26,789 nucleotides of DNA from a virus, in the IMG/VR virus record IMGVR_UViG_3300042558_002798, positions 1-26,789 of that record; one strand, written 5' to 3'. The notes under the pieces are model-generated. The model searched no databases, was not told where the DNA came from, and saw only the letters and a list, made by a program, of their open reading frames with translations. Below, in pieces: positions 6,488 through 25,687 of this stretch (its first letter is position 1; every line of letters starts with the position of its first letter). Position numbers and translations under genes: made by a program.

Positions 6488-6496
6488 GGAACAAAA

Positions 6497-7074: not shown

Positions 7075-7078
7075 ACTT

Positions 7079-7420: not shown

Positions 7421-7725
7421 TCAAAGTCAATGTAAGGTAAATCATCTCCAATGTCAATTGAATTTGTTAAATGTCCCCAGTTAAGTTGTCCGTCTTTATC
7501 AAAAATAAAGTTGTATTCTTTTCTTCCACCACCAGTAACAAACTCAGCTATAGGATTACCCCACACTTCATTAGAGATACTTTTTAATCTATTATCCAAT
7601 ATAGAAATCGCATCATCCCAACTATCATCCAATAAACCATTAAATCTTCCAAGTGTCTGAACTCGTTTGAATATAACAGGTTGATTATTATTCGTACCGA
7701 TTGAAGGTCTGTATTCTCTCCCCAT
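7414..7725 (-). CDS. C-terminal part of the PcfJ-like protein, in a shifted frame
   Basis: A 103-residue frame with an ATG at 7725, inside the end of the PcfJ-like gene and overlapping it by 38 nt. Its sequence QPVIFKRVQTLGRFN and the following WDDAISILDNRL look like the normal downstream part of phage PcfJ-like proteins, where a strand with 'EYR' is followed by 'KRVQxxGxFN' and a final helix. The frame also contains EYRPS right after its start. I therefore regard it as the C-terminus of the neighbouring gene, reached by a +1 frame change in or near a GGGG run at about 7721-7724, rather than an independent protein. Separate translation from the internal ATG cannot be excluded. Confidence 0.75.
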   Translation of the reverse strand: MGREYRPSIGTNNNQPVIFKRVQTLGRFNGLLDDSWDDAISILDNRLKSISNEVWGNPIAEFVTGGGRKEYNFIFDKDGQLNWGHLTNSIDIGDDLPYIDFEW

Positions 7726-9082
7726 CTTCCTTACGAAGTGATATAATTAATGATGAAGGTCTATCTTGATAAGTTCTTACACAATTAGATTGGTGTACTG
7801 ACTCATCAACATATTCTTCACTACTTTGTAGTACAAGAGGGTTAAATACCATTTTATCACTTGTTATGATTGGTTTTGATACTTGTTCAACAAATTCATT
7901 AGAGTATTGTCTTGAGTATTTCCCTGTGGTGTAAAAGTCAACTTTATCTGACCAAGTACTATGTTCAGCATTAAATTCTTTCAAAGTTTTAGACATCCAT
8001 TTAATCGGCTCGTTTCTTGATAGAATATCAAAAAATCTTACGTGGTCGTAAAAAGTATGAGTAGATAAATTATGGTCGGTTTTAGATAATAAGTAAATCT
8101 GATAACAATTACTCATATCCCTTTTACCGAAATTTTCAAAATAATGTCTTACAGGTTGAAATGGTGATTCGTCAATTTTAGTGTTAAAAATAATACACAA
8201 TTCTTCTTCAGGTCTTTGTAAAATAAAATCTCTCCCAAAGACATCCATCAACATTTTAATACTTTTGAAACAAGGATTTTGGACTTTATGTAATACTTTT
8301 TTAATTTTCTCTGAACTTACATCGTTTAATTTCATATAAGCATCAACCATCTTAAATCCGTATTTCTTATAGTCTTTTTTAATTGGTTTTGGATATACAT
8401 TGTAATACCCTCTCCAATTATCAGGTTTCTTAACCCCTTGTTTGTCCAACAAGCATCCAAATAAAGACATCGGTAACTCAATGTAGTTTAAAACTTTTTC
8501 AGCTCCAATTTTAGATAAAAACACATTAATACCTTCGGTAATTTTTAAATTATATGTTTTGGTATCATCTAACCCATTCATAAATGAATGATAACCATCC
8601 GTAGTTAACGATATCGGAAATGAGTTTCTTCTAACAACACTACCTTTACCCTTACCTCTTTTCTTATGGTATTCAGTGTTTTTACCAACCGTAAAAATAT
8701 TGGTTTTCTTATTAAATGTAATGTAGTTCAGTTTGGTACTTTTACGAAAAAATACTTCACCAGCCTTTCTGTGTTTTCCACAATAGAATACTTTTAAACA
8801 AACCTTATCTTCATTCTCCTCAACAACAAAAGTACTTCTAAAAACAGTTACATCACAAAGAGGATTACCATAATTTTTTTCAAACTCCTCTTTATCGTTA
8901 TTAACTGATTTATCAAATGTATAAACATAATGCTTACCGTCAAAAGACTCTCTCGCATGATATTTATTTTTCAAACCAAATGGTTCTACAAGAATACTAT
9001 CAGTAATCTCCCCCACCGAATTGTAGGGGAGATAGTGACCGACATAATATTTTTCGTTGATGAGTGTGAATAGGTTGTCCAT
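7688..9082 (-). CDS. PcfJ-like protein, main frame (interrupted by frameshift)
   Basis: A 464-residue frame starting MDNLFTLINEKYYVGHYLPY at 9082; a start two codons earlier is less likely because the ATG at 9082 forms TAATG with the DUF932 stop. The N-terminal 380 residues are basic and mostly helical. The PcfJ signature appears near the end: YVDESVHQSNCVRTY with Cys434, then SSLIISLRKEDG. PcfJ-like proteins are found on conjugative plasmids and phages; their biochemical role is not settled. The frame stops soon after this core, and the expected continuation lies in the +1 frame (7414-7725). Coupling to DUF932 is common-looking for mobile elements, but a joint function is unknown. Confidence 0.8.
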   Translation of the reverse strand: MDNLFTLINEKYYVGHYLPYNSVGEITDSILVEPFGLKNKYHARESFDGKHYVYTFDKSVNNDKEEFEKNYGNPLCDVTVFRSTFVVEENEDKVCLKVFYCGKHRKAGEVFFRKSTKLNYITFNKKTNIFTVGKNTEYHKKRGKGKGSVVRRNSFPISLTTDGYHSFMNGLDDTKTYNLKITEGINVFLSKIGAEKVLNYIELPMSLFGCLLDKQGVKKPDNWRGYYNVYPKPIKKDYKKYGFKMVDAYMKLNDVSSEKIKKVLHKVQNPCFKSIKMLMDVFGRDFILQRPEEELCIIFNTKIDESPFQPVRHYFENFGKRDMSNCYQIYLLSKTDHNLSTHTFYDHVRFFDILSRNEPIKWMSKTLKEFNAEHSTWSDKVDFYTTGKYSRQYSNEFVEQVSKPIITSDKMVFNPLVLQSSEEYVDESVHQSNCVRTYQDRPSSLIISLRKEDGERIQTFNRYE

Positions 9083-10197: not shown

Positions 10198-11550
10198 TTA
10201 AACTACATAATAATAACCATCACCTTCCTCATGTAAAACATCTTTAAGTTCTTCAGGAAGTTTAACATTACTTCCACTTACATTTAAGAAACCTAACATA
10301 GGTAAATCTTTAATACACGTTGGGATAGTCGTTAACTGAGGGTTGTTTGGTAAAGCAAGTAATAGTAAACTTGTCAAATTACAAATACTATCAGGAACAG
10401 ATTTAACCATACCACCTAATAAAAGTGTTTGTAACTTATCAAATCTTCCAATACTTTCAGGAACCTCAAGAGCAATTGTTTCTTTAATGTTTTTTGAAGT
10501 TTGGATAATTAATTGCTCCAAGTCATCTGGTAGGTTGTCAAATAATTCTTTAAATCCATATAATCCAACGAACTTACCTGCTGAAGATTCAGGATAAACA
10601 ATATCAACTCTCTTACCATTCTCTTTTGCCAATCCTTTAGCAAATTCAGGTTTGAAGAATTCTTTAAGTTCCGCCAACTTACCTTGTAACATTTCAACAA
10701 TATTCACATTTCTATCGTTTCTATCCATAAACTGATTAGACTGAAAGTGCCATTGGTATCTTTCAACAGGTAGACCTGATTTCTTACCCAAATCAGAACT
10801 TTGATTAGGTAGAATTACATATAATGGTCCTTGTTTGATATAAGTGTTAAAGTAACTTAAACCAGGTGAAGATGTACACCATCTTGTTTCACCCATATCA
10901 GGTTCGTGATAACCACCAAAGAAACAAGCCGCGTTTTTACCAAGTTCAGTTTGGTCTTCAATTTTAACAACAGTCCAGTTTGGTCCTTTAAATGCAATCG
11001 TTGAACCAGGGTATTGGTAAGTTGATTTAGCTTCTTCTTTTTCTTGTTTTGTTCCTTTTGTTTTTTCTAACTTAAAGTCCTTAACCGCATCAAATAATGT
11101 ATCAACAGTCAATTTATTAATATCTCTTTTGTCAGCTTCTAATTGACCTTTGAATCTCTCAAACTTCTTTAAGTCGTCAGTAACCTTGTATAAATCCTCA
11201 AGGTATAAGTCACGATATCTTTTAACTAATTGTTTATATTCAGGTGAACCAACTTCAACATCCGCTCTTTCATCACTAAATGATGGTTTCAAGAAATTCT
11301 TTAATATCCAGTTAGTATACTTACCAACCTTAACAATTTCCATTTGTTCAGGTGTTAGACTATCAATATTTTGAAGTAAGCTTTGCGGAGCTCTTGTAGT
11401 AGGGTCAGCAAAGATAATAGTTCTCAATGTTTCAAAAGGGATTTTACCAGGTTCAGGTTTTCTACCACCTTTGTCAACTAATTTATCATATAGAAGATTA
11501 AATCTTGAATCTTCTAAGATAATGTTTTTTAAGATATTAGTAAATTTCAT
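10198..11550 (-). CDS. WCTS-motif phage protein with C-terminal leucine-rich repeats
   Basis: A 450-residue protein. Residues 1-175 are helical and charged. The middle part has ETRWCTSSPGLSYFNTYI (221-238), GPLYVILPN (241-249) and ERYQWHFQSNQFMDRND (263-279), a motif set I recall from uncharacterised phage proteins. Residues about 345-435 hold four leucine-rich repeats with the LxxLPxxIxxLxxL pattern: LEVPESIGRFDKLQTLLLGG, SVPDSICNLTSLLLLAL, TIPTCIKDLPMLGFLNVSG and LPEELKDVL. The repeats suggest a protein-binding surface, the middle part a possible enzyme or binding domain. The Cys followed by beta strands and the 'YQ' strand resembles PcfJ in layout, which may be coincidence. It starts 24 nt after the adenine methyltransferase stop. 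Confidence 0.8.
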   Translation of the reverse strand: MKFTNILKNIILEDSRFNLLYDKLVDKGGRKPEPGKIPFETLRTIIFADPTTRAPQSLLQNIDSLTPEQMEIVKVGKYTNWILKNFLKPSFSDERADVEVGSPEYKQLVKRYRDLYLEDLYKVTDDLKKFERFKGQLEADKRDINKLTVDTLFDAVKDFKLEKTKGTKQEKEEAKSTYQYPGSTIAFKGPNWTVVKIEDQTELGKNAACFFGGYHEPDMGETRWCTSSPGLSYFNTYIKQGPLYVILPNQSSDLGKKSGLPVERYQWHFQSNQFMDRNDRNVNIVEMLQGKLAELKEFFKPEFAKGLAKENGKRVDIVYPESSAGKFVGLYGFKELFDNLPDDLEQLIIQTSKNIKETIALEVPESIGRFDKLQTLLLGGMVKSVPDSICNLTSLLLLALPNNPQLTTIPTCIKDLPMLGFLNVSGSNVKLPEELKDVLHEEGDGYYYVV

Positions 11551-13205: not shown

Positions 13206-13367
13206 ATGGAAAATTTAAAAAAAACCGAAGAAAAAAAATGTACTAAATGTGATAAAATGAAACAAAGTATCGTTCCTCAAGTCGCAATTGGGGTGTTAGT
13301 ATTTAGTTTCACTATCTATGGTATAGTTGAATTTGTTAAAGACATTATTGAATTACTTACCAAGTAA
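13206..13367 (+). CDS. Small CxxC membrane protein (53 aa)
   Basis: A 53-codon frame from ATG 13206 to TAA 13365-13367. It begins MENLKKTEEKKCTKCDKMKQ, with one CxxC pair (Cys12, Cys15), then a hydrophobic span of about 20 residues (IVPQVAIGVLVFSFTIYGIV) and the tail EFVKDIIELLTK. It is probably a single-pass inner membrane protein with a cytoplasmic Lys-rich, metal- or thiol-reactive head. TATAAATAA lies about 10 nt upstream. Its last eight codons form one arm of a long hairpin shared with the convergent glycosyltransferase gene. Confidence 0.7.
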   Translation: MENLKKTEEKKCTKCDKMKQSIVPQVAIGVLVFSFTIYGIVEFVKDIIELLTK

Positions 13368-13376
13368 TTCAATAAT
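13344..13376. terminator. 15-bp perfect hairpin at convergent gene ends
   Basis: ATTATTGAATTACTT (13344-13358) and AAGTAATTCAATAAT (13362-13376) are perfect inverted repeats separated by ACC. Both convergent stop codons lie inside the hairpin (13365-13367 plus, 13353-13355 minus). On the plus strand TTTTATCTTTT follows, so it may terminate that transcript; the minus-strand flank is less T-rich. Confidence 0.75.
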
Positions 13377-15485
13377 TTTATCTTTTACCATCTCAGATGT
13401 TATCTTTTTAGAACATTCAAACATTTTATCATTCCCCTTATTTATTGGACACCAATTCCAATCACCTGGGTCTAATCTAAACTTATTTGCACATCCTCTA
13501 CAAGTATTTTCAGGTGCACTAACTTTATAAACATTATCATAAGGTTCGTTAAACTCTTCAGTAAATCCTGAAATCAATACTGTTGGGATATCCAAAGCCC
13601 AAGTAACCCATGAAATACCACTTGATATTCCAATAAAGAATTCACAGGTAGATAACTCTTCAATCAGTTTATAGATTGAGCCAGAAGGGTTTTGTTTAGC
13701 ACCTTTAGGATAAAAATTACCCATATACCCATCTTCCTCTTTTGAATAAATGATTACCTCATAACCAAGAGATATAAGATAATCAGTAATTTCTTGCCAT
13801 CCTTTTGGGTTATTCCAATATTTGGATTGAGCGGTTGAATGAATACCCAATCCAACTCGTTTTTTCTTTAACTTGTTAGGGTTTTTAATTAAAGGTTTTA
13901 CTTCCTTATATTCCAAACCTAAAATGTCTGTCGCGGTTTTTTGTAATGGACCTAATTTAAAGTCACTTGGGTGTCTATCAGTTTTAACATTATCACCATC
14001 GTAAAACCAACCTATCTCATACATTGCGTATAGGTTATCAACCGTACTGCCAGGGGGGACAAATTGTATTTCAGGATATTGTTTTACAAACAAATCGTTA
14101 AAGAATGTTGAACAGATAACCTTACAATTATGTTTTTTTCTAAATTCCTCAGCGTAAGGTGCCCAAGCGAATGTATCACCTAAAGATTTAGAATCTAAAG
14201 CGATATATACTCGTTTGTTCTCCGCATTATATTTCTTTTCACTAATTAAATTACCTTCAGAGTAAATTTTTAAAGTATACTCATCAAAATATTTCTTACT
14301 TAATCTGACCCACATATTACAACCAATCTCCTCACGATATTCACAGTCACCACTCTGATTCCAAAACTCAACCAAATATCGTTTATCACTATTACCCTTA
14401 ATTTCAACTAACGCTCCGTTGATATAATGATTAATTACTTCAATTTTTTCAACCATCTCTTTTGGTTTTATTTCAGTATTTTCAAATACTTTATCAAATC
14501 TTTGTTTTGTCTCAAGACTATTCAAATTTTTTCTACTGTTAATAAGGTCTTCATAAATTCTAACCATCCTTTTAGTAATAACACTCCAATCGTATTTTTG
14601 TCTATCTAATTCAGTGTTATTTAAATATAAATCATAATTGTCAATTACTTGTTTAATACCACTAACTATTTGATTTACATCTCTTTCAACTATAACCATT
14701 CCTTCTATTGTTTGTGAACCCAAATAAGTACCAACAACGGGTATATTACAAGATACCGCCTCTAATAATGTTAGGTTTGGATGTCCGGCTTCCAACATAG
14801 ATGGATGTAAGAAGATTGAATGACTTTTATATAGTTCTAATATTTGTTCTTCATTTGGATTTGAGAACATTAAAGTTAACTTATCGTAATTTAATAAGTC
14901 ATTGTGATGTTCAAAGAATATTCTGTTATTTTCAGGACCAGCAACAGTAATAGGTAAATCTAATTTGATTGCGGATTCAATCGCATATCTAAATCCTTTT
15001 CTATCGTAGGTTGAATCACCACCAATACCATTGTTTGCTAAACACAATAATTTATGTTCAGTTCTTTTTGGATTGTCATTTTTAAAGAAATCAGTATTAA
15101 CACCATGTGATAGATAGAACAACTTATCTGTCTCATCAAAGTAATCAACTAAAAACTCAGCGTGGGTGAAAGATATCACAGACCTTTTAATTGCTTCTAA
15201 ATTTTGTTGGTAGTTAGATGACTCCTTACCGTAATAAACAACGTGGTGGTCATGTAATGAGAAGATATAAGGGATACCTCTATTTGCCGCTTCAATAGCC
15301 AAATTAGCCATATGAATATGAATAATATCACTACTGTTAGTATCTACCTCATTAAGATATTTTATATCACATTGGTGTCCTAACTCTTTAATATTGTTGT
15401 AATATTCCCATATTACTTTTTCAACCGCCCCCCAACCATTTGGTGGTATTGTAATAATTCCAGGTGTTACTTGTGTAATTCTCAT
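13353..15485 (-). CDS. Bifunctional GT4 glycosyltransferase / BAHT-type O-heptosyltransferase
   Basis: A 710-residue two-domain enzyme. Residues 1-320 are a GT4 (GT-B fold) glycosyltransferase: PPNGWGAVEKVIWEYY near the N-terminus, the DRKGFRYAIESA segment (161-172), and LEAGHPNLTLLEAVSCNIPV with the paired glutamates of the nucleotide-sugar site (Glu232, Glu242). After a linker domain (350-420), residues 425-710 resemble the autotransporter strand-loop-strand O-heptosyltransferases (TibC/BAHT, GT9-related): ALDSKSLGDTFAWAPYAEEF, GIHSTAQSKYW, GISSGISWVTWALDIP, and a four-cysteine finger (Cys662, Cys665, Cys679, Cys691) equivalent to their iron-binding finger. BAHT enzymes glycosylate proteins in the cytoplasm. 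It is the last gene of the glycan operon and overlaps the previous gene by ATGA. Confidence 0.85.
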   Translation of the reverse strand: MRITQVTPGIITIPPNGWGAVEKVIWEYYNNIKELGHQCDIKYLNEVDTNSSDIIHIHMANLAIEAANRGIPYIFSLHDHHVVYYGKESSNYQQNLEAIKRSVISFTHAEFLVDYFDETDKLFYLSHGVNTDFFKNDNPKRTEHKLLCLANNGIGGDSTYDRKGFRYAIESAIKLDLPITVAGPENNRIFFEHHNDLLNYDKLTLMFSNPNEEQILELYKSHSIFLHPSMLEAGHPNLTLLEAVSCNIPVVGTYLGSQTIEGMVIVERDVNQIVSGIKQVIDNYDLYLNNTELDRQKYDWSVITKRMVRIYEDLINSRKNLNSLETKQRFDKVFENTEIKPKEMVEKIEVINHYINGALVEIKGNSDKRYLVEFWNQSGDCEYREEIGCNMWVRLSKKYFDEYTLKIYSEGNLISEKKYNAENKRVYIALDSKSLGDTFAWAPYAEEFRKKHNCKVICSTFFNDLFVKQYPEIQFVPPGSTVDNLYAMYEIGWFYDGDNVKTDRHPSDFKLGPLQKTATDILGLEYKEVKPLIKNPNKLKKKRVGLGIHSTAQSKYWNNPKGWQEITDYLISLGYEVIIYSKEEDGYMGNFYPKGAKQNPSGSIYKLIEELSTCEFFIGISSGISWVTWALDIPTVLISGFTEEFNEPYDNVYKVSAPENTCRGCANKFRLDPGDWNWCPINKGNDKMFECSKKITSEMVKDKIIELLGK

Positions 15486-16168
15486 ATTAAACTAAAATTT
15501 TCATTTTTTCTTTTATCATAAGTTTCCCTATCTGTTGAAGCATATTTTTCATTCTCAATATCTAGTTCATCCATTGACCCTGGGTTAAAATAATAATGTT
15601 TATGTAAATAAATAAAATCACCAATATATGTTATTTTATTTAAAATTTTACCGACTTGAGTAAGTTCATCATCACAGTAAAAAGAATAATAAATAGGGTT
15701 AAATATATAACCAAATCTTTCATAATATTTTCTACCCATAACAGGATGTGTACAAATTAATTCATTTTGTATACCATCAGGAAAATGTAAAATACCGTCT
15801 AAATCAGGGTAAAACTCTAACATATATTTTCTAATATGTAAATCAATATTTTCTTTAGGAAATTCAAAATCGTCAGCAATATTCATAACAATATCCCAAT
15901 CAGATATTTTATTAATATTATAATTTGTGGCAATTATTTTACCTTTAGAGTCCGATGAAAATACTTTTATAATACTTGAATATCTATGATTTAAAATAAA
16001 ATTTTTAATTTCATCTGAATTCATTGTATCATCGTCATTATCTATTGAGACTAAAATTATACAATTTTCATAATCGTATAATTTATCACATAACTCATTA
16101 ATTACATTAATAAATTTTTTAGGTCTACTCCTTGTTGCAAAATTAAATAGGATTTTTAAATTTTTCAT
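15482..16168 (-). CDS. GT-A fold glycosyltransferase-like protein
   Basis: A 228-residue protein with a GT2-like start, KILFNFATRSRPKKFINVI, followed by the nucleotide-binding type strand VSIDNDDDTMNSDE (40-53) and the metal-site position NIADDFEFP (96-104), where ADD takes the place of the usual DxD. Late conserved-looking elements are HPVMGRKYYERFGYIFNP and YCDDELTQVGK. It is shorter than typical GT2 enzymes but has the order of a catalytic domain. It begins one base after the preceding GT25-like gene and overlaps the GT4/BAHT gene by 4 nt (ATGA). Donor and acceptor are unknown. Confidence 0.75.
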   Translation of the reverse strand: MKNLKILFNFATRSRPKKFINVINELCDKLYDYENCIILVSIDNDDDTMNSDEIKNFILNHRYSSIIKVFSSDSKGKIIATNYNINKISDWDIVMNIADDFEFPKENIDLHIRKYMLEFYPDLDGILHFPDGIQNELICTHPVMGRKYYERFGYIFNPIYYSFYCDDELTQVGKILNKITYIGDFIYLHKHYYFNPGSMDELDIENEKYASTDRETYDKRKNENFSLI

Positions 16169-16169
16169 A

Positions 16170-16889
16170 CTATTTTGTAAAAACTTTATATTCTTTATCT
16201 ATAAATGACTCACCATCTACTTGAGTTGTTATTCTTTTATTTAAAACACCCATGGTCAATCTTTGTTCTGAACATATTATATTGAAAAACGTGTCAGCAC
16301 AATCCCATCTATGTGTTCTCAACTGGTTCATTATTGTTTTACGTGATTTCTTTGAAAACATTATACATTGTAAACCAATTATTTTATTTGTAATAAACAA
16401 TAAATCTTGATTTGGTATTTCCCTAACCACATCAGATTGGTGCCATCCATAATCTAAGGTTTTAGTATCACCGAATGAAAAATAAGAAATGTCTTCCTGA
16501 TTAACAATACTACACACCTGATTAACTTTATCTATAAACTCCTCAATCGGAACTTCTATAATACAATCACCTTCACAGACAATTAAGAAATCTAAATCAT
16601 TATCAAATTCAGATAAGATACCTATTTTAAATGCTTCAAAACATCCGTAGTGAGCCGGTGTTAAAGCGTTACCATATTCAGGGTCATTAACATCTTCATA
16701 CTTACCCATTCTAACATTATGTGGTCTAACACTAGTATGAATTGGAGGTAAAGAAGCATATAACTCGTTCTGATGTAAAACATATTCAATACCATAAGGG
16801 ATTACCTGTTGTACAGATTTTCTTGATTCTTTTTCTCTATGTTCATTCTGTGTTGTCTGTAAATGAACTAATTTAATCTTATAATTCAT
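16170..16889 (-). CDS. GT25-like glycosyltransferase
   Basis: A 239-residue protein when started at MNYKIKLVHLQTTQNEHREK; an upstream ATG at 16910 would overlap the previous gene by 13 nt. The layout resembles GT25-type enzymes: LTPAHYGCFEAFKIGI (76-91), comparable to their 'LTxGExGCxxSHxxx' helix, then FLIVCEGDCII (101-111), where EGDC takes the place of the 'LEDD' metal site. Further on are SYFSFGDTKT and THRWDCADTFFNII. The match is one of pattern, so substrate and even activity are uncertain. Position within the glycan operon supports a glycosyltransferase role. Confidence 0.65.
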   Translation of the reverse strand: MNYKIKLVHLQTTQNEHREKESRKSVQQVIPYGIEYVLHQNELYASLPPIHTSVRPHNVRMGKYEDVNDPEYGNALTPAHYGCFEAFKIGILSEFDNDLDFLIVCEGDCIIEVPIEEFIDKVNQVCSIVNQEDISYFSFGDTKTLDYGWHQSDVVREIPNQDLLFITNKIIGLQCIMFSKKSRKTIMNQLRTHRWDCADTFFNIICSEQRLTMGVLNKRITTQVDGESFIDKEYKVFTK

Positions 16890-16897
16890 ATGATTTT

Positions 16898-18493
16898 TTA
16901 CGGTCTCCATAATCCAATACCACCAAACCCTTGTGAGTGTTGACCATTTAATTTAACATTACCAGATGACTTAGTACATACTAAATTAATTTTTGTACCT
17001 TCATCTAAATCTTGCCAAAATTTATAAACCTGACCGGCGTAACTATCGGCGAATATATGGTTAGGGTCAATGTCGTGGAAACCAATCACACCACGTGGTG
17101 ATAATAAATTTTTATATAATTCAAAATCATGTTTAACACCATCATATGTGTGGTCACCATCAATAAAAATAAAATCGTATTTTGGACAAAAATCTTTTAC
17201 TTGTTCAAACATATCTTTAGTATGTGAGTCCCCTTGGAAGAATTTCCAATCTTCTCCGTGCATAAAATGATGTATAATTGATTGTCTTGGTTCAATATCT
17301 ACTGAAACTTTCTTACCCGTTGATAGTTTTGACATCAACCAAAAGGTACTACCCATTGTCCCAATTTCTAATATATTATGAGGTTTAAACCCTCCTAGCC
17401 AATAGGATAATGTTAATATTTCTTCATACACCTGCATGAAAATACATTTTTCCATCAAATCAAAATCCAAACAATAATCCACTAACTCTTTTGGTTCATT
17501 AGTTTTTATAATATTTGTTTTTGTTGATTTAGAAAGTTGTTTAGATAATAAATTCACTATTGAATCGTAATAACGAATATGGTGATTATTATTACATAGT
17601 TTAGATGTGTCAACTAATCCATCAGGTAGTGTATAGTCTTTAGTCCAATCCAAATATTCAATAAAACCAATTTTATTTTTCCAATATGTATCGAATAATT
17701 TAAAACAAAGTTTTCTATCATCTTCAGTTCCTAATATATATTCATATAAAAATCCATCTCTCATCGGTGGATTAGGTGACAATATAACAATACGATTATT
17801 ATAAATTTCTTTAATTTTTAAAATTGAATTAAAGTAACTATCCATCAACTCTAAACAAGCTTCTTTTAAAGTAATGTTCTTGTTTTCACAATGTTTATGA
17901 ATTGTGTATCTGAAATCTATCTCACCCAAATAGAACACTAAAACATCTTTTTCTTGTATCGGAAGAGAATCAAGTAACCCTAAGAAGTCACCATTAACAA
18001 ATCGATTTAAACTTAATGAAGTCTGACTAACCCTTATAGGTACATGTCTCCCTACCCTATCAAATTTATTATTAGTATCGCCAAAACTAGCCCAAGCGTT
18101 TGAATCCCCTATAATCCAAGCTCTTTTAAGATATTCAGGATTAGATAAAGAATGATTACGCATTTCAAAAGATTTATGGTGAGTCTTAATTACCTCATCA
18201 TATATTATTTGATTAGTACTTAAATCTTCAACTTTAATTCTAACACCAAATTTTAAATTAGGTTTTTCATTATTATCAATTTCATCAACACTAAATCGAG
18301 TCCAAAAATTAATATTATTTGGAATTGTAACAGTGTCCGAACCTGGTATGTATTCGATATTAAAAAATGGGTCTAGTATAGTTAATTTTATAGTACTTTC
18401 ATTACTGATTGGATTTTCAACACTATAATGTATTTCACAAACAGATTCTGTAATTAATCGTTTTTCTTCCAATCTAATTAAATTAAACTTCAT
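16898..18493 (-). CDS. SGNH-hydrolase-like / class I methyltransferase fusion
   Basis: A 531-residue fusion. Residues 1-115 look like a beta-sandwich. Residues about 125-315 carry an SGNH/GDSL-like layout: AWIIGDSNAWASFGD (125-139, nucleophile Ser131 in GDSN), VLVFYLGEIDFRYTIH (184-199), VILSPNPPM and a late NNNHHIRYYD with candidate catalytic histidines. Residues about 355-531 are a SAM-dependent methyltransferase of the Methyltransf_24 kind: HNILEIGTMGSTFWL (372-386), FIFIDGDHTYDGVKHDFELY (441-460) and GVIGFHDID. SGNH domains add or remove acetyl groups on glycans, methyltransferases cap sugars, so the protein may tailor the glycan made by its neighbours. It starts 4 nt after the upstream glycosyltransferase. 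Confidence 0.75.
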   Translation of the reverse strand: MKFNLIRLEEKRLITESVCEIHYSVENPISNESTIKLTILDPFFNIEYIPGSDTVTIPNNINFWTRFSVDEIDNNEKPNLKFGVRIKVEDLSTNQIIYDEVIKTHHKSFEMRNHSLSNPEYLKRAWIIGDSNAWASFGDTNNKFDRVGRHVPIRVSQTSLSLNRFVNGDFLGLLDSLPIQEKDVLVFYLGEIDFRYTIHKHCENKNITLKEACLELMDSYFNSILKIKEIYNNRIVILSPNPPMRDGFLYEYILGTEDDRKLCFKLFDTYWKNKIGFIEYLDWTKDYTLPDGLVDTSKLCNNNHHIRYYDSIVNLLSKQLSKSTKTNIIKTNEPKELVDYCLDFDLMEKCIFMQVYEEILTLSYWLGGFKPHNILEIGTMGSTFWLMSKLSTGKKVSVDIEPRQSIIHHFMHGEDWKFFQGDSHTKDMFEQVKDFCPKYDFIFIDGDHTYDGVKHDFELYKNLLSPRGVIGFHDIDPNHIFADSYAGQVYKFWQDLDEGTKINLVCTKSSGNVKLNGQHSQGFGGIGLWRP

Positions 18494-18497
18494 ATTA

Positions 18498-19295
18498 TTA
18501 TTCTGATTTATTTATTGTATAAGCACTTGTTGATGGTTCAAAACCTAAATTGATAATGTGGAATCTTTTATGACATAAAGATTTATATTTTTTTGACCAC
18601 CTTTCAGCAAATTCCAATTCAACTTTAGTTTCATTTGGATTGAATGTTGTTGAAAATTCCCCTATTGACAATAGTTTTTTGACATTATGAACACCAGGTC
18701 TTAATGAAAAACTTGGCCAGTTAATATATGTTAACCATAAGTCAGGTGTTTGAACTACTTGTAATGCCGAAACATCATCATAAAATAAATTACAATTCAA
18801 TGGTAAATTTGGGTCATAGTACCACTCCCAATAATTTTCATATTCAACAGGTTTGATATTATCAGGAAATTTTTTAAAACTCTGAGAATATCCAAAATAA
18901 GCATAACCATTATTTAAACTTAACGCATCTATCGCTTCAGTAATCTTGAATAAATCCATAAAAAGATAATCATCCTCCAATAAAAAACAATAATCAGAAT
19001 CAGTCTCGATTAATTTATCTCTCCAAGAATTTAATACTCTAGCGTGTCTAAAATTATCAGGAAATGAATTCGGGTAAAAGTGAGTGATGATTTTGTTTGT
19101 ATTTGGAAAATAATCATTTAGTAATTTTTCCATTTCTCTTTTATCGTCATTATTAGATGAGTCGTCAAAGAAAATTATATCATCTATTATTTCCGTATCT
19201 AAACAAAAAACAGAAAATGCTTTAATAACACGTCTTAAGAAATGTAGTCTTTTACAAGACATTATTGTTAAAGATATTTTTTTATTATTATACAT
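18498..19295 (-). CDS. GT2-type glycosyltransferase
   Basis: A 265-residue protein with a GT2/GT-A arrangement: ISLTIMSCKRLHFLRRVIKA at the N-terminus, IIFFDDSSNNDD (40-51) as nucleotide-sugar strand, and YCFLLEDDYLFM (102-113) as the DxD-type metal site. A later SFSLRPGVHNVKKLL and FEPSTSAYTIN may shape the acceptor side. Several aromatic residues (YWEWYYDP) suggest carbohydrate stacking. It lies 16 nt after the 578-residue glycosyltransferase and 4 nt before the SGNH/methyltransferase gene, deep in the cluster. Linkage and sugar unknown. Confidence 0.8.
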   Translation of the reverse strand: MYNNKKISLTIMSCKRLHFLRRVIKAFSVFCLDTEIIDDIIFFDDSSNNDDKREMEKLLNDYFPNTNKIITHFYPNSFPDNFRHARVLNSWRDKLIETDSDYCFLLEDDYLFMDLFKITEAIDALSLNNGYAYFGYSQSFKKFPDNIKPVEYENYWEWYYDPNLPLNCNLFYDDVSALQVVQTPDLWLTYINWPSFSLRPGVHNVKKLLSIGEFSTTFNPNETKVELEFAERWSKKYKSLCHKRFHIINLGFEPSTSAYTINKSE

Positions 19296-19311
19296 TTTTT
19301 AAATTTTAAAA

Positions 19312-21048
19312 TTAAGAAAATACCACATAATCAAGAATATTTTCATTTATAATATCGTATAAAAATTCATTTGTCTGAGTGTCATATACCGATACTTTTT
19401 TAATTTCACTATTAAAAATATTAAATGACCAATGACCATAATTTTCCAAAGTATAATAATAAGTTTCATTACTATCATCTAAAAAATTAACAATTATTTT
19501 TCTTTCTGATTTAAAATTATTGTAATTATACGATAATACCATTTTAGAATCTTGTCCTAAAATATTATAAATTTTAATTGAGCATCCGTTAAACTTTGAT
19601 GATATATTACTAACTGTCGTTTCAGTATTCCAAATCGTACCCACAAAATCTTCATTCATGGATATTTCACCATTTTTTCTAATCAAAAATCCATTATCTT
19701 TTTGATTAATATTGTGATAAAGATATTTTTCAACATTAATAAAATCAGTACCAAATCCATTATTTTGTAAATAATTTTTATAATCTTCCTCACAATTAAT
19801 CCTATTAATTATCTGTTGGAAGTATTCTATTTCACAATAAAAATAATGGAACGAAACATCTCTACCTTCATTAAAATAAAACATTCCCTTTTTGTTTTGA
19901 GTAGAACAAATCACTGGTACAGTTGTCATATATTCATAACCTTCTTCACTATATAAATCATCAACTTCAATTCTTTGGAAATGTGTAAACCCAAATGACT
20001 TACACAAATCTAATGAGTTAAACAAATTAACCATAACAGGTAATCCATGTTTTTGTATTGTATTTGTAACTTCATGAGTTGTTAATGAACCAAGGTTTTT
20101 CCAAAAAATAACTGGTTCGGAATTAGTGTATTCACCTTCAAAAAGAATGTTATTTGAGTTATATAAATGATAATCAACAATTTTTAATATATGTTCAGGA
20201 ACAATAGTATTAGACACAAGAAGTATTGTATGGTTATACTTTTTTAAGTTATTAATACATAACTCCAACTTATTTAAAACATTTTCATTATGGATAAAAC
20301 AATCGACTATTGTTATTGTTTTAAATTCATCTTTAATATTTTGTCTTTTGAGTTCATTAGAAACTATTATGTTTTTTTTGTTTTTTTCTTCTTCCGAAAT
20401 ATTTGAAAACATACCATCATTTGATATTCGATAAATTCCCCCACATTTATGAATACACTTAATTAAACCGTGTTTACTAATTTCATAATTAAGCGGCCAA
20501 TCAACATAAGGTAAATTTGTAAAATAATCTTTAATTAAATTTGGTATGTTTCTAAATACCCTCGCAAAAGATGCATGATTAATAGTTAATAAATCATCTG
20601 TAGTTATATCGTCAAGAAATGAACTAATAAACAATTCAGGAACTGTAGGTATCTTGGTACCATCGGGATGCAAATATCTTGTTCCTGTACAAACCATACT
20701 ATAATTTGGACTGTTCTCTAAAAATTCAACTTCTTCATTTAAGATTGTATAATTATCAAAATAATCATCTCCGTCAATATAAGCAATGTATTTTGTTTTA
20801 CAGTAATTTAATAAAGTTCTAATATTTTCAAAACCTCCTAAATTAGTATCACCATTTAAAATTATTAAATTAGGGTATTTTTCTTTTAATTTAATTAAAA
20901 CATCTTTAGTATTATCTGTCGACCCATCATCCCTTACTATCACATCAAACCCATAATTAATTTTTTGAGAGTATATTGAATCAATACACTCTTCAATATA
21001 TTTTTCAAAATTATAAGATGGTACTACTACCGTAAGTATTTTTTTCAT
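19312..21048 (-). CDS. GT2 glycosyltransferase with long C-terminal extension
   Basis: A 578-residue protein. Residues 1-230 are a clear GT2 domain: ILTVVVPSYNFEKYIEECID (4-23), VIVRDDGSTDNTKDVL (36-51) and KYIAYIDGDDYFDN (86-99), the DGDD being the metal/nucleotide site. The remaining about 350 residues form an additional unit with a second alpha/beta region (TITIVDCFIHNENVLNKLEL, FTHFQRIEVDDLYSEEGYEY) and a beta-rich tail (SKMVLSYNYNNFKSERKIIV). The second region could be another GT-A domain with a VDDLYS metal site, making this a two-headed enzyme, but the match is loose. It follows the MaoC gene by 12 nt. Confidence 0.85.
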   Translation of the reverse strand: MKKILTVVVPSYNFEKYIEECIDSIYSQKINYGFDVIVRDDGSTDNTKDVLIKLKEKYPNLIILNGDTNLGGFENIRTLLNYCKTKYIAYIDGDDYFDNYTILNEEVEFLENSPNYSMVCTGTRYLHPDGTKIPTVPELFISSFLDDITTDDLLTINHASFARVFRNIPNLIKDYFTNLPYVDWPLNYEISKHGLIKCIHKCGGIYRISNDGMFSNISEEEKNKKNIIVSNELKRQNIKDEFKTITIVDCFIHNENVLNKLELCINNLKKYNHTILLVSNTIVPEHILKIVDYHLYNSNNILFEGEYTNSEPVIFWKNLGSLTTHEVTNTIQKHGLPVMVNLFNSLDLCKSFGFTHFQRIEVDDLYSEEGYEYMTTVPVICSTQNKKGMFYFNEGRDVSFHYFYCEIEYFQQIINRINCEEDYKNYLQNNGFGTDFINVEKYLYHNINQKDNGFLIRKNGEISMNEDFVGTIWNTETTVSNISSKFNGCSIKIYNILGQDSKMVLSYNYNNFKSERKIIVNFLDDSNETYYYTLENYGHWSFNIFNSEIKKVSVYDTQTNEFLYDIINENILDYVVFS

Positions 21049-21060
21049 TATTTATCCCTA

Positions 21061-21429
21061 TTATTTTTTTAGAATTATTGCATTCCCCTCAATTAAAATT
21101 TCATCATCTTTAAAAATTATTGTTTTTAAAAAAAACTTATTTCCGTCTTTTTTATCAAGTTCTACAATCACCTCAATTTCATCATTAATAAAACAAGGGT
21201 TTTTAAAAATCAAATTTTGTTGTAGATATATTGAACCCTTACCAGGATATACTTCAGATATCAATCTTGAAAAAAAGGAACTTAATAACATCCCGTGAGC
21301 AACTCTTTTACCAAAAATAGTTGATTTAGCGTATTCCTCATCTAAGTGTATTGGGTTTTTATCTCCTGATAACTCAGAGAAATCTTTAACCATATCTTCA
21401 GAAATTAAAATTTTTTCAGATACTCGCAT
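21061..21429 (-). CDS. MaoC-like hot-dog hydratase
   Basis: A 122-residue single hot-dog domain of the MaoC/(R)-specific enoyl-CoA hydratase type. Residues 17-30 (FSELSGDKNPIHLD) contain the catalytic pair Asp23 and His28 in the usual spacing, and FGKRVAHGMLLSSFFSRL follows at 39-56. These enzymes convert trans-2-enoyl-CoA to (R)-3-hydroxyacyl-CoA. It is unusual in a phage and overlaps the end of the acyltransferase gene by 25 nt, so the pair is translated together. I infer that it supplies a hydroxyacyl thioester for transfer to an amino sugar, a modification known from Flavobacterium surface glycans. Confidence 0.9.
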   Translation of the reverse strand: MRVSEKILISEDMVKDFSELSGDKNPIHLDEEYAKSTIFGKRVAHGMLLSSFFSRLISEVYPGKGSIYLQQNLIFKNPCFINDEIEVIVELDKKDGNKFFLKTIIFKDDEILIEGNAIILKK

Positions 21430-21968
21430 TCTAAATTTATTATATTTTTTTTTCTATCCTTTATTTCTTTAGCCGGTATTCCAACCGCAATTTTAGACTC
21501 AGATATGTTTTTATTTACTAATGATAAACTACCTATAGCACTATAATCTTCAATCTCAACATTTGGTAATATTATAGTACCCGCACCAATAATAACATGT
21601 TTACCTAATATGACTTTACCTGAAATCACATTTGTAAATTCTTTATTAACTGTGGGATTTGTCATGAATTCCCCACTATAATCATCTGTTGATGTATATA
21701 TGGATACTCTAGAAGATAGTCCTGAAAAATCTTTCATTACAATTTCTTCATTACCCATTAAACTACAGAAAATTGCAATATGGACATTATTACCTAACTT
21801 AATTCCTCCATTACCAGCACTTATCACACAAAAATCATCAATTCTAACATTATTACCCAATTCAATATTTTTAGGATTATAAATTGAACATCTATTAGAA
21901 ATTAAAACATTATCCCCAATAGATTTGAAACCTATTTCGACCAACTCATTTTTACTATAAAATCCCAT
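21405..21968 (-). CDS. Left-handed beta-helix (hexapeptide) acyltransferase
   Basis: A 187-residue acyltransferase with hexapeptide repeats over almost its full length: GDNVLISNRCSIYNPKNIEL, GNNVRIDDFCVISAGNGGI, LGNNVHIAIFCSLMG, then after a loop GKVILGKHVIIGAGTIILPN and the final AIGSLSLVNKNI/VGIPAKEI. This is the layout of trimeric sugar O- or N-acyltransferases such as WbbJ or those acting on amino sugars. Its ATG overlaps the DegT aminotransferase stop as TAATG, and the MaoC gene overlaps its end. The order aminotransferase, acyltransferase, hydratase suggests that it transfers an acyl group to the newly made amino group. Confidence 0.9.
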   Translation of the reverse strand: MGFYSKNELVEIGFKSIGDNVLISNRCSIYNPKNIELGNNVRIDDFCVISAGNGGIKLGNNVHIAIFCSLMGNEEIVMKDFSGLSSRVSIYTSTDDYSGEFMTNPTVNKEFTNVISGKVILGKHVIIGAGTIILPNVEIEDYSAIGSLSLVNKNISESKIAVGIPAKEIKDRKKNIINLECEYLKKF

Positions 21969-22621
21969 TATTTTTTATATATTTCAAATTTTGATAAGTC
22001 AGGATATGGTAGTTCCAAATCTTCATTATGTTTAGGTGTACCATCCATGTTATAAAATTGATTCATAAGTAATAAACCTCTTGAAGCAATTTCAGGCATC
22101 ATGTAAAAATTCCATCCTAACATATCAAAATTATCATCATGATACGATACTTCATTCCTACCTGAATATCTCGCTCGTTTAAACCACTTGTAAGCCTCAA
22201 AATCGTCAGTTAAGATTGCACCACCTTTACCAAGTTTTAAGTGTTTATATGGGCCTGTAAATGATAAACACATATGTGTTCCTGGTATATACATATCACT
22301 TGTAAATCTTAATGCCGAATCCCAAACATTTGTTGGTGATAGTTGATACGCTCCTTTTAATGTTGACCCATAAACAGGTTCAAACTCGACTTTACCTCCA
22401 GCGTGGATAATCTCGCAAGGTACTGACGGGTATGTTCTACTTGGTATTTTAATTGTTTTACCATTAATTTTCTCATAATACAACGCTAAAAATAAAGCGT
22501 TACTTTGATTATCAACTGTAACAGCATATGGTGCACCAGCATATTCAGCTAATTGTTCTTCAAATTTTTTTGTGACATCGTAAACCGATGATGACAATGT
22601 ACCAGGTGTTCTTAATTTCAT
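21968..22621 (-). CDS. Short DegT/DnrJ/EryC1-type PLP aminotransferase
   Basis: A 217-residue protein of the DegT/DnrJ/EryC1/StrS sugar aminotransferase family. Seen are the N-terminal FEEQLAEYAGAPYAVTVDNQ with NALFLALYY (20-49), IPSRTYPSVPCEIIHAGGKV (59-78), WDSALRF (100-106), the PLP-lysine region LSFTGPYKHLKLGKGGAILT (119-138; Lys126 is the likely Schiff base residue) and the arginine/asparagine region GWNFYMMPEIASRGLLLMNQ. Family members are usually about 370 residues; here the C-terminal small domain of about 150 residues is missing. It may be a natural minimal form, since the end is clean and the next gene is coupled by TAATG. Expected product: an amino-deoxy sugar nucleotide. Confidence 0.85.
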   Translation of the reverse strand: MKLRTPGTLSSSVYDVTKKFEEQLAEYAGAPYAVTVDNQSNALFLALYYEKINGKTIKIPSRTYPSVPCEIIHAGGKVEFEPVYGSTLKGAYQLSPTNVWDSALRFTSDMYIPGTHMCLSFTGPYKHLKLGKGGAILTDDFEAYKWFKRARYSGRNEVSYHDDNFDMLGWNFYMMPEIASRGLLLMNQFYNMDGTPKHNEDLELPYPDLSKFEIYKK

Positions 22622-22622
22622 A

Positions 22623-25229
22623 TTATTTTATTTTTTTAGCAATATAATTATCAGTTGTTGTATGCGTAATTGTAAATCCAAATTCATGTAGTTTTTGTAT
22701 TATTTTTTGATTACTATTTTCATCATTAGTTTTTTCAACACACAATAATCTACATTTTTTTAATTTATTTTGTATTTCATCTATTACAATTAATTCATGC
22801 CCTTCAACGTCAATATTAATGAAATCATAGGTATCTTTTTCTAAATCATAATATTCAACAATATCATTAAAATTGTATACTATTATTTGATTTTCTTTCC
22901 AACTCATTCCAATAAATCTTTCTTTATTTTCAGGATGTATAGTAGATAATATTCCCTGCGGAGCATCGCTCACATCCCAGTTCAAACTTTCATGTATATT
23001 TATCACATCTGTTTTATTTGAAACACCCGCATTAATACATTTAATATTTTTATTTTTTTTATATAAATTCTGTAATTTTAAAAAAGCAGTTTGGGTAGGT
23101 TCAACACAAACTCCATCCCATCCTAATAATGCAAGCGCGTGTGTATTTGAAAATGTTTTACCGTCATTCGCACCAATATCTAAAAATTTATTTGTTTTTG
23201 GGTCTTCCCCATCAAAAAATGATAGAATTATTTCCTGTTCATTGTTTTGTGAAAAATCTAAAATGTCATTGTTAACTTTATTTTTAGGTTTAGCAAAGAT
23301 TACTCCATGTTTAGCGTTTTTATCCGCTTTAGTTTTACGTCCCATTTCATAAATGATAATATCATATTCAAAATCATTTTTTTCAAGTTTTTCAAGTATG
23401 ATATTAATTTGTCCATTGGTATTTTCATGAAACTCAATCATAAATCTATCCACCAATCCAATCTGTTCATCAGTAATTGATTCAAAAATTGGGTATTCAC
23501 CACCCTCAATATCACATTTAAATAATGATATTCTACCATAGTCATTATCTTTGTAGATATCATCAATAGTAATAGTGTCACAACTAATTAAATTGTTAAG
23601 TTGACCATATTCTCCCACATTACCGTCAAAAACATTTGACCCAATAGTTGAATTTTCTTTTGAAAATCTGAAATCAATCTTGGTATGTTCCTTGTAAACA
23701 GGGTTCATATAAATGGTTGATTTAGATAAATCACCATCTAAATGATATTCAATACTTTCCCTTAGGTATGGATTTGCCTCAACTAAAATAACTTTTTTAG
23801 CATTTATGGTATACATGTACTTAGCGAATAACCCAACATTAGCACCAATATCAATTACAGTATCAAGATTTTCTAACTTTAAATCATCAAAACATCTATC
23901 AACAAAAAACTCATAATAGTTAATGTAATTACAATCCAAAGGTTTAAATTTAAATTCAGGTATTCTTGGGTAGAAATTAGGATTAACAATTAACTCTTGA
24001 CCAAAAACTAATTCGTTTGTTTCCACATCATAGAACTCAACTAAAAATCCTCTAAAGTTAGGATTGTCTTTGAATTTTTTAATATGAATTGGGATAGGCA
24101 TTGTCCAATAAAATATTGGGTATTCCAAAGGTAAATTAAACCAATACATCGGAGCCTTTGAAGTTATGTCTCTAATACTAACATTAAAATCAAACTTTTT
24201 ATTGCCGGTATAGTTAATGGTAATCTGATTATTATCACCATTAAAATCAAAACTGAAAAGAGAGTCAATACCCCCAACATTTAATACATCCATCATATTA
24301 TTTACATCTTTATCTATATCTCCAGTTAAAAATGTAACTTGAGGTAGTTTATCATATTTTCCACAATACACATCCAAATTATACATCATCATAGGAATAC
24401 CATATTCAATAGCCTCCTTAATGGCAATTGGATTTAATTCTTTATTATTTCTATCCCCTTTTGATGGGAACATAAACAAATCGGACGCTTCCAAAAATTC
24501 ATTTACATTATCCTTTTCACCCCAAATAATACAGTTTTCAGGTTTGTTATTCATCAGTGGTTCCCAATAACTTCTAAAGTTATCTGCCTGATTTCCAATG
24601 AAATGAAATTTAATTTTACTATTTTCTAACTTACGAGCAATTTCAAAAATGTATTTTTGATTTTTTCTTTCAGTGAATAACCCAACATTAACAACATGTT
24701 TCCACCCTTTATCGAACCCAAGTTTTTCTTGGAGCATGTTCTTTCTTTTTTCTCTGTTTTCAATAGGATACTCAATTACCTCATAAGGTATGTCAAACAT
24801 TGAATACTGAATAGCATTAAACACACTAACAAAGATAAACTTGTCAGGAAACCAAACCTTAGATGTTGGTTTAAAACTTGAATCGTGCGTGGTTTCAAAT
24901 ATTTTATATGGACGATTTTGTCTATAAATTTGTCTTGTAATGTTATTATCCATGAAAAATTCAGGGAACTCCTCCATTGATATAATGTCAGGTTGGAAAT
25001 CGTTAATAACATCAATTAAAACATTCTTATCATCCCATAGAGTAATAAGATTGTCCTCACCAATCATATTTTTAATTCTGTTCTTCTGAACAACAAAATC
25101 CCAAGAATAACACCCGTATTCAACACACTTTATAATATAATCGTCTTTAAGAAGTTGAATCTTATTCGTAGTAACCTGTGGTAGTCCCCCAGTAGATAGG
25201 TGTGGGACTATAAATAATATTTTCTTCAT
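22623..25229 (-). CDS. GT4 glycosyltransferase fused to two FkbM methyltransferases
   Basis: An 868-residue protein starting MKKILFIVPHLSTGGLPQVT at 25229; the longer frame from 25247 adds an unlikely six residues. Residues 1-320 form a GT4 domain (STGGLPQVT near the N-terminus, NVGLFTERKNQKYIFEIA 181-198, LNPIAIKEAIEYGIP with the paired acidic residues, 265-279). About residues 430-650 are a first FkbM methyltransferase (TVIDIGANVGLFAKY, 457-471; VEANPYLRESIEYHL; FKCDIEGGEYPIFES, 570-584). Residues 660-868 are a second FkbM domain (KFLDIGANDGKTFSN, 681-695; CVEPTQTAFLKLQ; FINIDVEGHELIVID, 803-817). FkbM enzymes O-methylate sugars. It is the first gene of the cluster and probably adds a sugar and then caps it. 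Confidence 0.9.
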   Translation of the reverse strand: MKKILFIVPHLSTGGLPQVTTNKIQLLKDDYIIKCVEYGCYSWDFVVQKNRIKNMIGEDNLITLWDDKNVLIDVINDFQPDIISMEEFPEFFMDNNITRQIYRQNRPYKIFETTHDSSFKPTSKVWFPDKFIFVSVFNAIQYSMFDIPYEVIEYPIENREKRKNMLQEKLGFDKGWKHVVNVGLFTERKNQKYIFEIARKLENSKIKFHFIGNQADNFRSYWEPLMNNKPENCIIWGEKDNVNEFLEASDLFMFPSKGDRNNKELNPIAIKEAIEYGIPMMMYNLDVYCGKYDKLPQVTFLTGDIDKDVNNMMDVLNVGGIDSLFSFDFNGDNNQITINYTGNKKFDFNVSIRDITSKAPMYWFNLPLEYPIFYWTMPIPIHIKKFKDNPNFRGFLVEFYDVETNELVFGQELIVNPNFYPRIPEFKFKPLDCNYINYYEFFVDRCFDDLKLENLDTVIDIGANVGLFAKYMYTINAKKVILVEANPYLRESIEYHLDGDLSKSTIYMNPVYKEHTKIDFRFSKENSTIGSNVFDGNVGEYGQLNNLISCDTITIDDIYKDNDYGRISLFKCDIEGGEYPIFESITDEQIGLVDRFMIEFHENTNGQINIILEKLEKNDFEYDIIIYEMGRKTKADKNAKHGVIFAKPKNKVNNDILDFSQNNEQEIILSFFDGEDPKTNKFLDIGANDGKTFSNTHALALLGWDGVCVEPTQTAFLKLQNLYKKNKNIKCINAGVSNKTDVINIHESLNWDVSDAPQGILSTIHPENKERFIGMSWKENQIIVYNFNDIVEYYDLEKDTYDFINIDVEGHELIVIDEIQNKLKKCRLLCVEKTNDENSNQKIIQKLHEFGFTITHTTTDNYIAKKIK

Positions 25230-25253
25230 ACCTAAAAAAAATAACAATATTTA

Positions 25254-25300: not shown

Positions 25301-25687
25301 ATGAAAAAATTTATCTTATCAGTCTTTTTAGTTCTTTCAACACTATTATCATTCTCTCAAGAAGTAGGTTTTGCTAAAGCCGTAGAACTCTATACAGGTT
25401 ATAGAGACACAAATAACGAAATCGTATGGAATGGTTCACCAACATCAGTGGATATTCTAATCAAGTTAGAAGACGACAAAGTAACCATCTTTAGTCAACA
25501 AACCCAAGTATATCGTGTAGTAACCAAACTAAGTGACGAAGATTCATATATCACTTACAGAATGTTAGATTCACAAGGTGGTAACTGTAACTTCCATATG
25601 GGTCCATCTGAAACTCAAGGTTATATATTCATCGCAATTGAATACAACGATTATGCTTGGATGTATCTAACAGAGATAGACGAATAA
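25301..25687 (+). CDS. Small secreted protein of unknown function
   Basis: A 128-residue protein with a clear Sec signal peptide: positively charged MKK, a hydrophobic core ILSVFLVLSTLL and a cleavage region SFSQ, likely cut before Gln20, the form common in Bacteroidota. There is no lipobox cysteine, so it is probably periplasmic or secreted. The mature part of about 109 residues is beta-rich (SVDILIKLEDDKVTIFSQQT, YRVVTKLSDEDSYITYRML) with one cysteine (GGNCNFHMG). It looks host-derived in style and may be a lysogeny- or infection-related accessory gene. It is divergent from the glycan cluster and converges on dnaJ with no space left. Confidence 0.75.
   Translation: MKKFILSVFLVLSTLLSFSQEVGFAKAVELYTGYRDTNNEIVWNGSPTSVDILIKLEDDKVTIFSQQTQVYRVVTKLSDEDSYITYRMLDSQGGNCNFHMGPSETQGYIFIAIEYNDYAWMYLTEIDE

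Follow-up and report, generated by a model that had tools for sequence, protein, structure and literature searches.

The IMG/VR record IMGVR_UViG_3300042558_002798, which derives from a freshwater phage and was analysed over its whole length (26,789 bases, here termed the window), carries a compact operon that probably serves to O-glycosylate, in the cytoplasm, collagen-like and proline-poor fibres of the phage itself, the collagen-like acceptor being one that we infer, with a methylated and N-acylated oligosaccharide. The operon comprises ten open reading frames (ORFs), all on the minus strand, at 13353-25247 (with 25229 as the upper end if the first gene starts at its ATG), which are numbered g1 to g10 in order of transcription, i.e. 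from 25247 down to 13353. The successive intergenic distances are -4, 1, -13, 4, 16, 12, -25, -1 and 1 nucleotides (nt), as fits the compact arrangement with short gaps and overlaps described in the original prediction, which had counted nine genes rather than the ten found.

Cytoplasmic protein glycosylation had earlier been proposed from the missing exporters; it is now also supported by the assignment of g10 (13353-15485) to a protein-modifying family and by the frequency of collagen-like neighbours. The g10 protein, one of the core products of the operon, is a fusion of a GT4 glycosyltransferase (PF00534) with a TibC/AAH-type (BAHT, GT9-like) protein O-heptosyltransferase (PF01075, TIGR04414). 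Its residues 369-705 match TIGR04414, 'autotransporter strand-loop-strand O-heptosyltransferase', with 258.4 bits, compared with a curated whole-family cut-off of 200 in NCBIfam, and by this sequence measure the C-terminal half is a member of the protein O-heptosyltransferase family. A profile (A8) of ten phage and bacterial homologues of g10 matches the TibC crystal structures 4rap and 4rb4 with E values of about 1e-87 (9e-88 for 4rap), covering TibC residues 28-386 of 406. In TibC, Cys 339, 342, 358 and 370 hold the iron, and the complex with sugar is that of a D110A mutant (PMC4358343). The equivalents of Asp110 and of the four iron-finger cysteines (D437, C662, C665, C679 and C691) are kept in all 80 phage homologues analysed, a conservation that was not directly selected for because the patterns used to find the loci lay in the GT4 half. 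Asp110 of TibC has a catalytic role, and TibC and AAH act in the cytoplasm, without a lipid carrier. TibC modifies serines of TibA and AIDA-I, and in the case of TibA the modified residues were serines, not threonines (PMC4358343).

Relatives of g10 are encoded in 159 viral stretches, and nearly all of the best 80 of these 159, which were those analysed, match over the full length. In genome contigs there are eight g10-type loci, in seven of which the best segment starts from at least residue 347, and in the eighth from residue 210. The C-terminal half is present in only four of 50,697 phage records, and a scan of it against PHROGs returned no match except a terminase (0.0056, residues 390-462). 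In the bacterial class that includes Methylobacter, TIGR04414 is above its cut-off in only two of 369 genomes (G021 and G026).

A collagen-like frame near these loci was counted when 12 or more Gly-X-Y triplets followed one another without a break, Ser and Thr filled 50% or more of the X/Y positions, and the frame lay within 10 kb of the locus where the sequence reaches. With dereplication at 90%, such a frame accompanies 22 of 39 g10 loci and 23 of 42 loci of the g1 N-terminal region (15 of 27 and 9 of 20, respectively, at 70%; 33 of 80 and 38 of 80 undereplicated), compared with none of 59 tail sheath control loci and one of 32 control loci of DNA polymerase B. At 70% the controls give 0 of 16 for the sheath and 0 of 2 for the polymerase, which was identified by eye from its motifs and has only these two representatives at that level. 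The flank searched in the 90% sets amounted to 639, 739, 645 and 558 kb for g10, g1, sheath and polymerase B. For g10 at 90%, the Fisher p value is 1e-11 against the sheath and 7e-7 against polymerase B; at 70% it is 0.0002 against the sheath. In 20 of the 22 positive g10 loci the frame lies within 5 kb, and the same proportion (20 of 22) holds for a distance of five genes.

The proteins concerned are in some cases very large. Relatives of the window encode giant Gly-X-Y-rich proteins, in which the triplets, where tallied (G005 and G012), are mostly GSS and GTS; that of G005 has 4,766 amino acids (aa), including 2,157 Ser, 589 Thr, 6 Lys and 9 Pro, those of G003 have 2,636 and 1,998 aa, and that of G012 has 3,414 aa. 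A collagen-like frame stands just upstream of the operon in G012, G006, G014 and G015; in G006, G014 and G015 the contig begins inside the frame. Hydroxylysine, the acceptor in mimivirus, was considered and is ruled out by composition, with 0-26 Lys per listed collagen-like protein. LR756501, a phage of 735 kb, has g10 and a g1-g8 fusion gene adjoining an ORF of 695 aa that contains two collagen-like runs, of 19 and 10 triplets; of the pattern matches in this genome, ten are adjacent to the operon and 1,629 are on the opposite strand, where the listed ones fall at 103.5-104.8 kb. In the Microcystis phage Mel-JY01, the record of which names Microcystis elabens as host, the order is a collagen-like frame of 1,016 aa, a 'structural protein' and, last, the TibC-type fusion, a g10-type gene at 4750-8430 of PP395634. 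The Mel-JY01 frame (PP395634, L463 1-3052) was apparently missed by annotation, the overlapping genes being mostly on the opposite strand.

Among the eight g10-type loci in genome contigs, six have a collagen-like run, two of them (L296 and L302) looking like phage by eye; the two on short contigs (L295 and L301) have none. Two Methylobacter genomes have a gene pair (L297 8929-11119, L298 8941-11119) in which a small collagen-like ORF is followed, 52 nt on, by the start of the TibC-like gene; the collagen-like ORF has a signal-peptide-like start (by eye), the runs being of 12 and 19 triplets, and the rest of the operon is not in view at these pairs. In a Polaromonas metagenome-assembled genome a 19-triplet ORF lies 7 nt from the TibC-like gene, on the other strand, and in the gammaproteobacterial locus L300 a 24-triplet GSS-rich ORF is near by, a second run there being a repeat of low complexity that is read on the opposite strand.

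The absence of export machinery, on which the original prediction was based, holds for the window, where no ORF has more than one predicted transmembrane (TM) segment, and also outside it, in relatives of up to 242 kb that were examined by family search and TM scan. The flippase family Polysacc_synt (PF01943) was matched in none of 15 contigs searched and the initiating transferase family Bac_transf (PF02397) in none of nine, the controls built into these searches matching in 13 and 9 of 14 genomes, respectively. A hydropathy scan, which gives 6 and 9 TM segments for Escherichia coli Wzy and Wzx, found at most four segments and no ORF with at least five in G003 and G005 (about 241 kb each), which are collinear over most of their length and are not proved complete. 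For Wzy and ABC exporters the negative comes from the TM scan, no family model for either having been searched. ORFs with six TM segments in four other loci (L188, L193, L195 and L199) were considered as exporters and rejected as tape-measure-like (829-911 aa, by eye). That the contig is a piece of bacterial chromosome was rejected, the window being a whole IMG/VR record with viral contigs of up to 242 kb as close relatives, and a host O-antigen locus was likewise rejected on the lack of a flippase or initiating-transferase match and of any multi-TM ORF, together with the presence in relatives of genes typical of phages, judged by eye to be sheath-like and polymerase-B-like.

The remaining genes encode enzymes that may build and cap a glycan. 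The g1 protein (22623-25247, 874 aa; ATG start at 25229) combines a GT4 domain (about residues 1-320; PF00534) with two FkbM-type methyltransferase domains (PF05050, in two stretches); several relatives lack the second FkbM and have a DegT domain fused to g1 instead. The g2 protein (21968-22621; 217 aa) is a short DegT/DnrJ aminotransferase (PF01041), in which the PLP-lysine region is kept by eye (PYKHLKLGKGG) and the C-terminal part of the family is missing, relatives being of similar length. In Pfam, g3 (21405-21968; 187 aa) is a left-handed beta-helix hexapeptide acyltransferase; its best solved relative is the 3vbi-3vbp series (E 1e-51, residues 2-186 of 187), deposited as 'Galactoside O-acetyltransferase', which represents AntD, the enzyme of anthrose synthesis that carries out the N-acylation. 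The g4 protein (21061-21429) is a MaoC-type (R)-specific enoyl-CoA hydratase (PF01575; 1iq6, E 3e-21), and g5 (19312-21048; 578 aa) a GT2 glycosyltransferase (PF00535), which also has a GtrB-like PHROG match; its C-terminal domain is shared with further phage glycan genes. Three genes occupy variable cassettes: g6 (18498-19295), a putative glycosyltransferase with a weak TIGR04440 match (E 0.011) and homologues 38-61% identical; g7 (16898-18493), a class I methyltransferase (PF13578, i.e. Methyltransf_24, and PF04989) with an N-terminal domain of uncertain, perhaps SGNH-like, kind; and g9 (15482-16168), a phage glycosyltransferase (phrog_14945, 2.6e-12) of a single sequence type among the loci compared.

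The core gene g8 (16170-16910) is among the most conserved, with 94-97% identity in eight relatives, and has no family match in Pfam, PHROGs or NCBIfam. Its predicted structure (pLDDT 81, pTM 0.84) has a GT-A glycosyltransferase fold, the top fold match being the human collagen galactosyltransferase COLGALT1 (Foldseek E 8e-9; VIA-align Z 16.4, rmsd 4.0, 217 aligned), with GnT-I close behind (Z 15.3). Comparison of g8 with PDB sequences gave nothing useful, and no sequence-profile match to COLGALT1 was obtained; the modelled likeness is thus suggestive, and not proof, of GT25 membership.

The enzyme inventory of the original prediction largely stands. The expected five or more glycosyltransferase units are present as GT4 in g1, GT4 and TibC/GT9 in g10, GT2 in g5, the PHROG match of g9 and the GT-A fold of g8, that of g6 being weak; the methyltransferase domains number three, FkbM in the two stretches of g1 and Methyltransf_24 in g7, where at least three had been anticipated; and the short DegT aminotransferase, hexapeptide acyltransferase and MaoC hydratase all have Pfam matches. 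A branched, methylated and acylated glycan is consistent with this content. Overall, the original prediction is partly confirmed: the operon, its enzymes and, as far as the searches reached, the absence of export stand, with the exceptions of the gene count and of the SGNH-like domain, for which g7 has no Pfam match, a PDB search gave nothing useful and the AlphaFold model is poor (pLDDT 55.7).

A conserved scaffold of the g1 N-terminal part, g2, g5, g8 and g10 (about 74-100% identity in relatives; the L012 contig ends inside g1) carries three variable slots, as seen when gene order was compared among related phages. In six of nine displayed loci g3-g4 are replaced by FkbM-like and NeuD-like genes (by eye), L008 and L015 having additional genes, and in the same six g2 is fused to g1; the g6-g7 and g9 slots differ or vanish among relatives. 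Between the window and L010 identity is 100% over about 19.8-25.3 kb, compared with 79% just before and 92% falling to 74% after, a block that, from the alignment, is read as recent recombination carrying the anthrose-type cassette. Judged from these comparisons, cassettes are exchanged on a conserved scaffold.

With respect to the sugar made by g2-g3-g4, the relative G003 has an RmlB above its cut-off (401 compared with 365 bits) and G005 a GDP-mannose 4,6-dehydratase-like protein below its own (380 compared with 415 bits). Since a keto-sugar source, an aminotransferase, an N-acyltransferase, a hydroxyacyl supply and a methyltransferase are all present in the phage group, an anthrose-type sugar is plausible and a reasonable guess, its exact identity being conjectural. 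Anthrose ends the oligosaccharide of the collagen-like protein BclA (PMC6947953), and a paper on the AntD structure is cited in PMC8141488. A second sugar locus was observed in G005 (about 80-91 kb; L034 100-11700) and in G003 (about 168-179 kb; L025 8300-18500), with GMD-like, short DegT, acyltransferase-like, GalE-like, RmlD-like and further glycosyltransferase-like genes (some by eye). Its short DegT (L034 8567-9190, in G005) is 33% identical to g2, both having about 210 residues and lacking the usual C-terminal part, and from sequence it is possible that the two represent a minimal aminotransferase.

The operon is flanked by genes for DnaJ, two DNA methyltransferases and DUF932, with thioredoxin-, glutaredoxin- and DUF3310-like ORFs (by eye). 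A phage protein with a leucine-rich-repeat C-terminus (10198-11550) adjoins Dam; it is 99% identical over 328 residues in L009/L010, compared with 72% for the DnaJ across the operon. At 25301-25687, on the plus strand, the window and its relatives have a small ORF with a signal-peptide-like start that ends in ...FSQ, an ending that, by eye, suggests a Bacteroidota host.

It can be proposed that glycosylation starts with the TibC-like part of g10, which would link a first sugar (heptose, should donor use follow the family) to Ser and possibly Thr of the (Gly-Ser-Ser/Gly-Thr-Ser)n collagen-like fibre proteins of the same phage. The GT4 half of g10, then g8, g5, g1, g9 and perhaps g6 would extend and branch the chain, and the FkbM and class I methyltransferases would cap its sugars. 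The g2, g3 and g4 enzymes may make an amino-dideoxy sugar and N-acylate it with a hydroxyacyl group, as in anthrose, with g4 supplying the 3-hydroxyacyl-CoA to g3. The nascent collagen-like proteins would thus be glycosylated, extended and capped in the cytoplasm and then assembled; a lipid carrier, flippase and polymerase would not be needed because enzyme and acceptor meet there before virion assembly. The glycan coat may stabilise repeats that are almost without proline, and may vary the phage surface; roles as spacer, shield or in receptor binding are equally possible. In Riftia cuticle collagen, stability has been linked to glycosylated threonine (PMC11766948).

Several observations weigh against the phage's own collagen-like proteins as the acceptor. 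The window itself is without a collagen-like frame, and its long relatives (G003, G005 and G009) have the collagen gene on the same contig but at a distance of about 28 kb. The frame is within 5 kb of only eight of the 42 g1 loci, and none of the controls carries a TibC-type gene, so that co-occurrence plus proximity, not proximity alone, is what the comparison demonstrates. Controls were confined to the sheath and polymerase B, without a further gene of the fibre region, and it is thus possible that the two kinds of gene merely reside in the same variable fibre modules. No match to SIS_2 (GmhA) was present in nine of nine phage contigs; ADP-heptose would therefore have to be supplied by the host, unless another donor is used. 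Further such points are at the same time those expected if the operon glycosylates another protein, e.g. of the capsid, tail tube or host surface, the collagen-like genes being hitchhikers in hypervariable fibre regions: 17 of the 39 dereplicated g10 loci have no frame in the available sequence, some of which is short; the phage LR756504 (636 kb) has no collagen-like frame within 20 kb of its TibC-like gene; and g1 loci are positive in 22 of 37 cases with a TibC-type gene and one of five without, a difference that is not significant (p 0.16). Glycosylation of mycobacteriophage capsid and tail tube is also reported (work cited in PMC12619734). However, sheath loci, which are structural too, gave 0 of 59, Methylobacter keeps the TibC-like and collagen-like genes adjacent where the rest of the operon is not in view, and the serines that TibC modifies are in the passenger domains of adhesins (PMC4358343), so that another protein as acceptor appears unlikely.

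That the enzymes instead alter a host surface polysaccharide (O-antigen or capsule), e.g. so blocking superinfection, is rather improbable. O-antigen loci commonly contain genes of the GT2, GT4 and acyltransferase kinds, and the GtrB-like match of g5 points the same way, as do the interpretations given to pelagimyophage clusters (PMC7029224) and to a huge-phage heptosyltransferase (PMC10747093). Set against these are the lack of flippase and initiating-transferase matches, the lack of proteins with at least five TM segments in G003 and G005, and the fact that g10 falls in a protein-acting family and tracks collagen-like genes. Phage-encoded glycosyltransferases acting on DNA are well known. 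Examples are cited in PMC12619734 and, with two DNA methyltransferases in the window, hypermodification of phage DNA bases might be envisaged; it is, however, highly improbable, given that TIGR04414 members act on protein and that neither an N-acyl amino sugar cassette nor collagen-like neighbours would be expected.

Each class of component in the proposed fibre glycosylation system is known, and it is their combination in bacteriophages that looks new; a phage TibC-type enzyme linked with collagen-like proteins was not found among the matches listed from the open-licence literature. With TibC/AAH, which O-glycosylate protein serines (PMC4358343), g10 is likened by sequence, sharing the family by curated score and the Asp110 and iron-finger cysteine equivalents. 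By contrast with TibC/AAH, g10 is fused to GT4, is phage-encoded, belongs to a ten-gene operon with extending and capping enzymes, and lies near collagen-like proteins, not autotransporters. The ant genes encode an acyltransferase, an aminotransferase, a hydratase and a glycosyltransferase/methyltransferase. The antABCD/BclA system of the Bacillus cereus group likewise combines a collagen-like acceptor with an oligosaccharide bearing an N-acylated, O-methylated amino sugar (PMC6947953), and the phage operon has an AntD-like acyltransferase, aminotransferase, hydratase and glycosyltransferase/methyltransferase. It differs in having a MaoC-type hydratase and a TibC-like attachment enzyme, and in belonging to a phage, not a spore, with anthrose itself only presumed. 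The g3 protein is of AntD type by its full-length match to 3vbi-3vbp; the full-length sugar aminotransferase of antABCD was not encountered, g2 being short and matching parts of DegT only. The g2-g3-g4 cassette is accordingly regarded as working like the ant operon, and is not classed as one.

Mimivirus, in which L230 is linked with collagen glucosylation, and the chloroviruses, with their autonomous glycosylation, are also large DNA viruses with their own glycan enzymes and collagen-like viral proteins, and PBCV-1 has a glycosyltransferase-methyltransferase fusion (PMC4691112, PMC9614988), as does the phage in g1. By contrast, those are viruses of eukaryotes, and in mimivirus it is hydroxylysine of the collagen that carries the modification; the phage repeats are almost without Lys. 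To our knowledge, neither the TibC family nor a collagen-like acceptor has been described for mycobacteriophage virion glycosylation. The phage-encoded glycosyltransferases of mycobacteriophages decorate virion proteins (cited in PMC12619734), the sites differing in being capsid and tail-tube C-termini. Comparable phage clusters are treated as O-antigen modifiers in PMC7029224 and are left open in PMC12619734.

One enzyme thus gives a testable reason to re-read some phage glycosyltransferase clusters, with host-lipopolysaccharide, DNA or left-open interpretations, as virion glycosylation, and Mel-JY01, with a host named in its record, could make testing practical. There is about an even chance that large freshwater phages make 'glyco-collagen', i.e. 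GSS/GTS proteins of up to 4,766 aa, almost without proline and lysine, in which the triple helix is built to carry, and gains stability from, Ser/Thr-linked phage-made oligosaccharides, with the GT4-TibC fusions as a new branch of collagen-directed O-glycosyltransferases in phages and some bacteria, and exchangeable capping cassettes, one anthrose-like, as the phage serotype. If true, fibre glycosylation would provide a bacterial-virus parallel to mimivirus collagen and the BclA filaments of spores; it would also suggest how collagen-like proteins poor in proline might gain their stability, and would give phages a genetic means of varying their surface.

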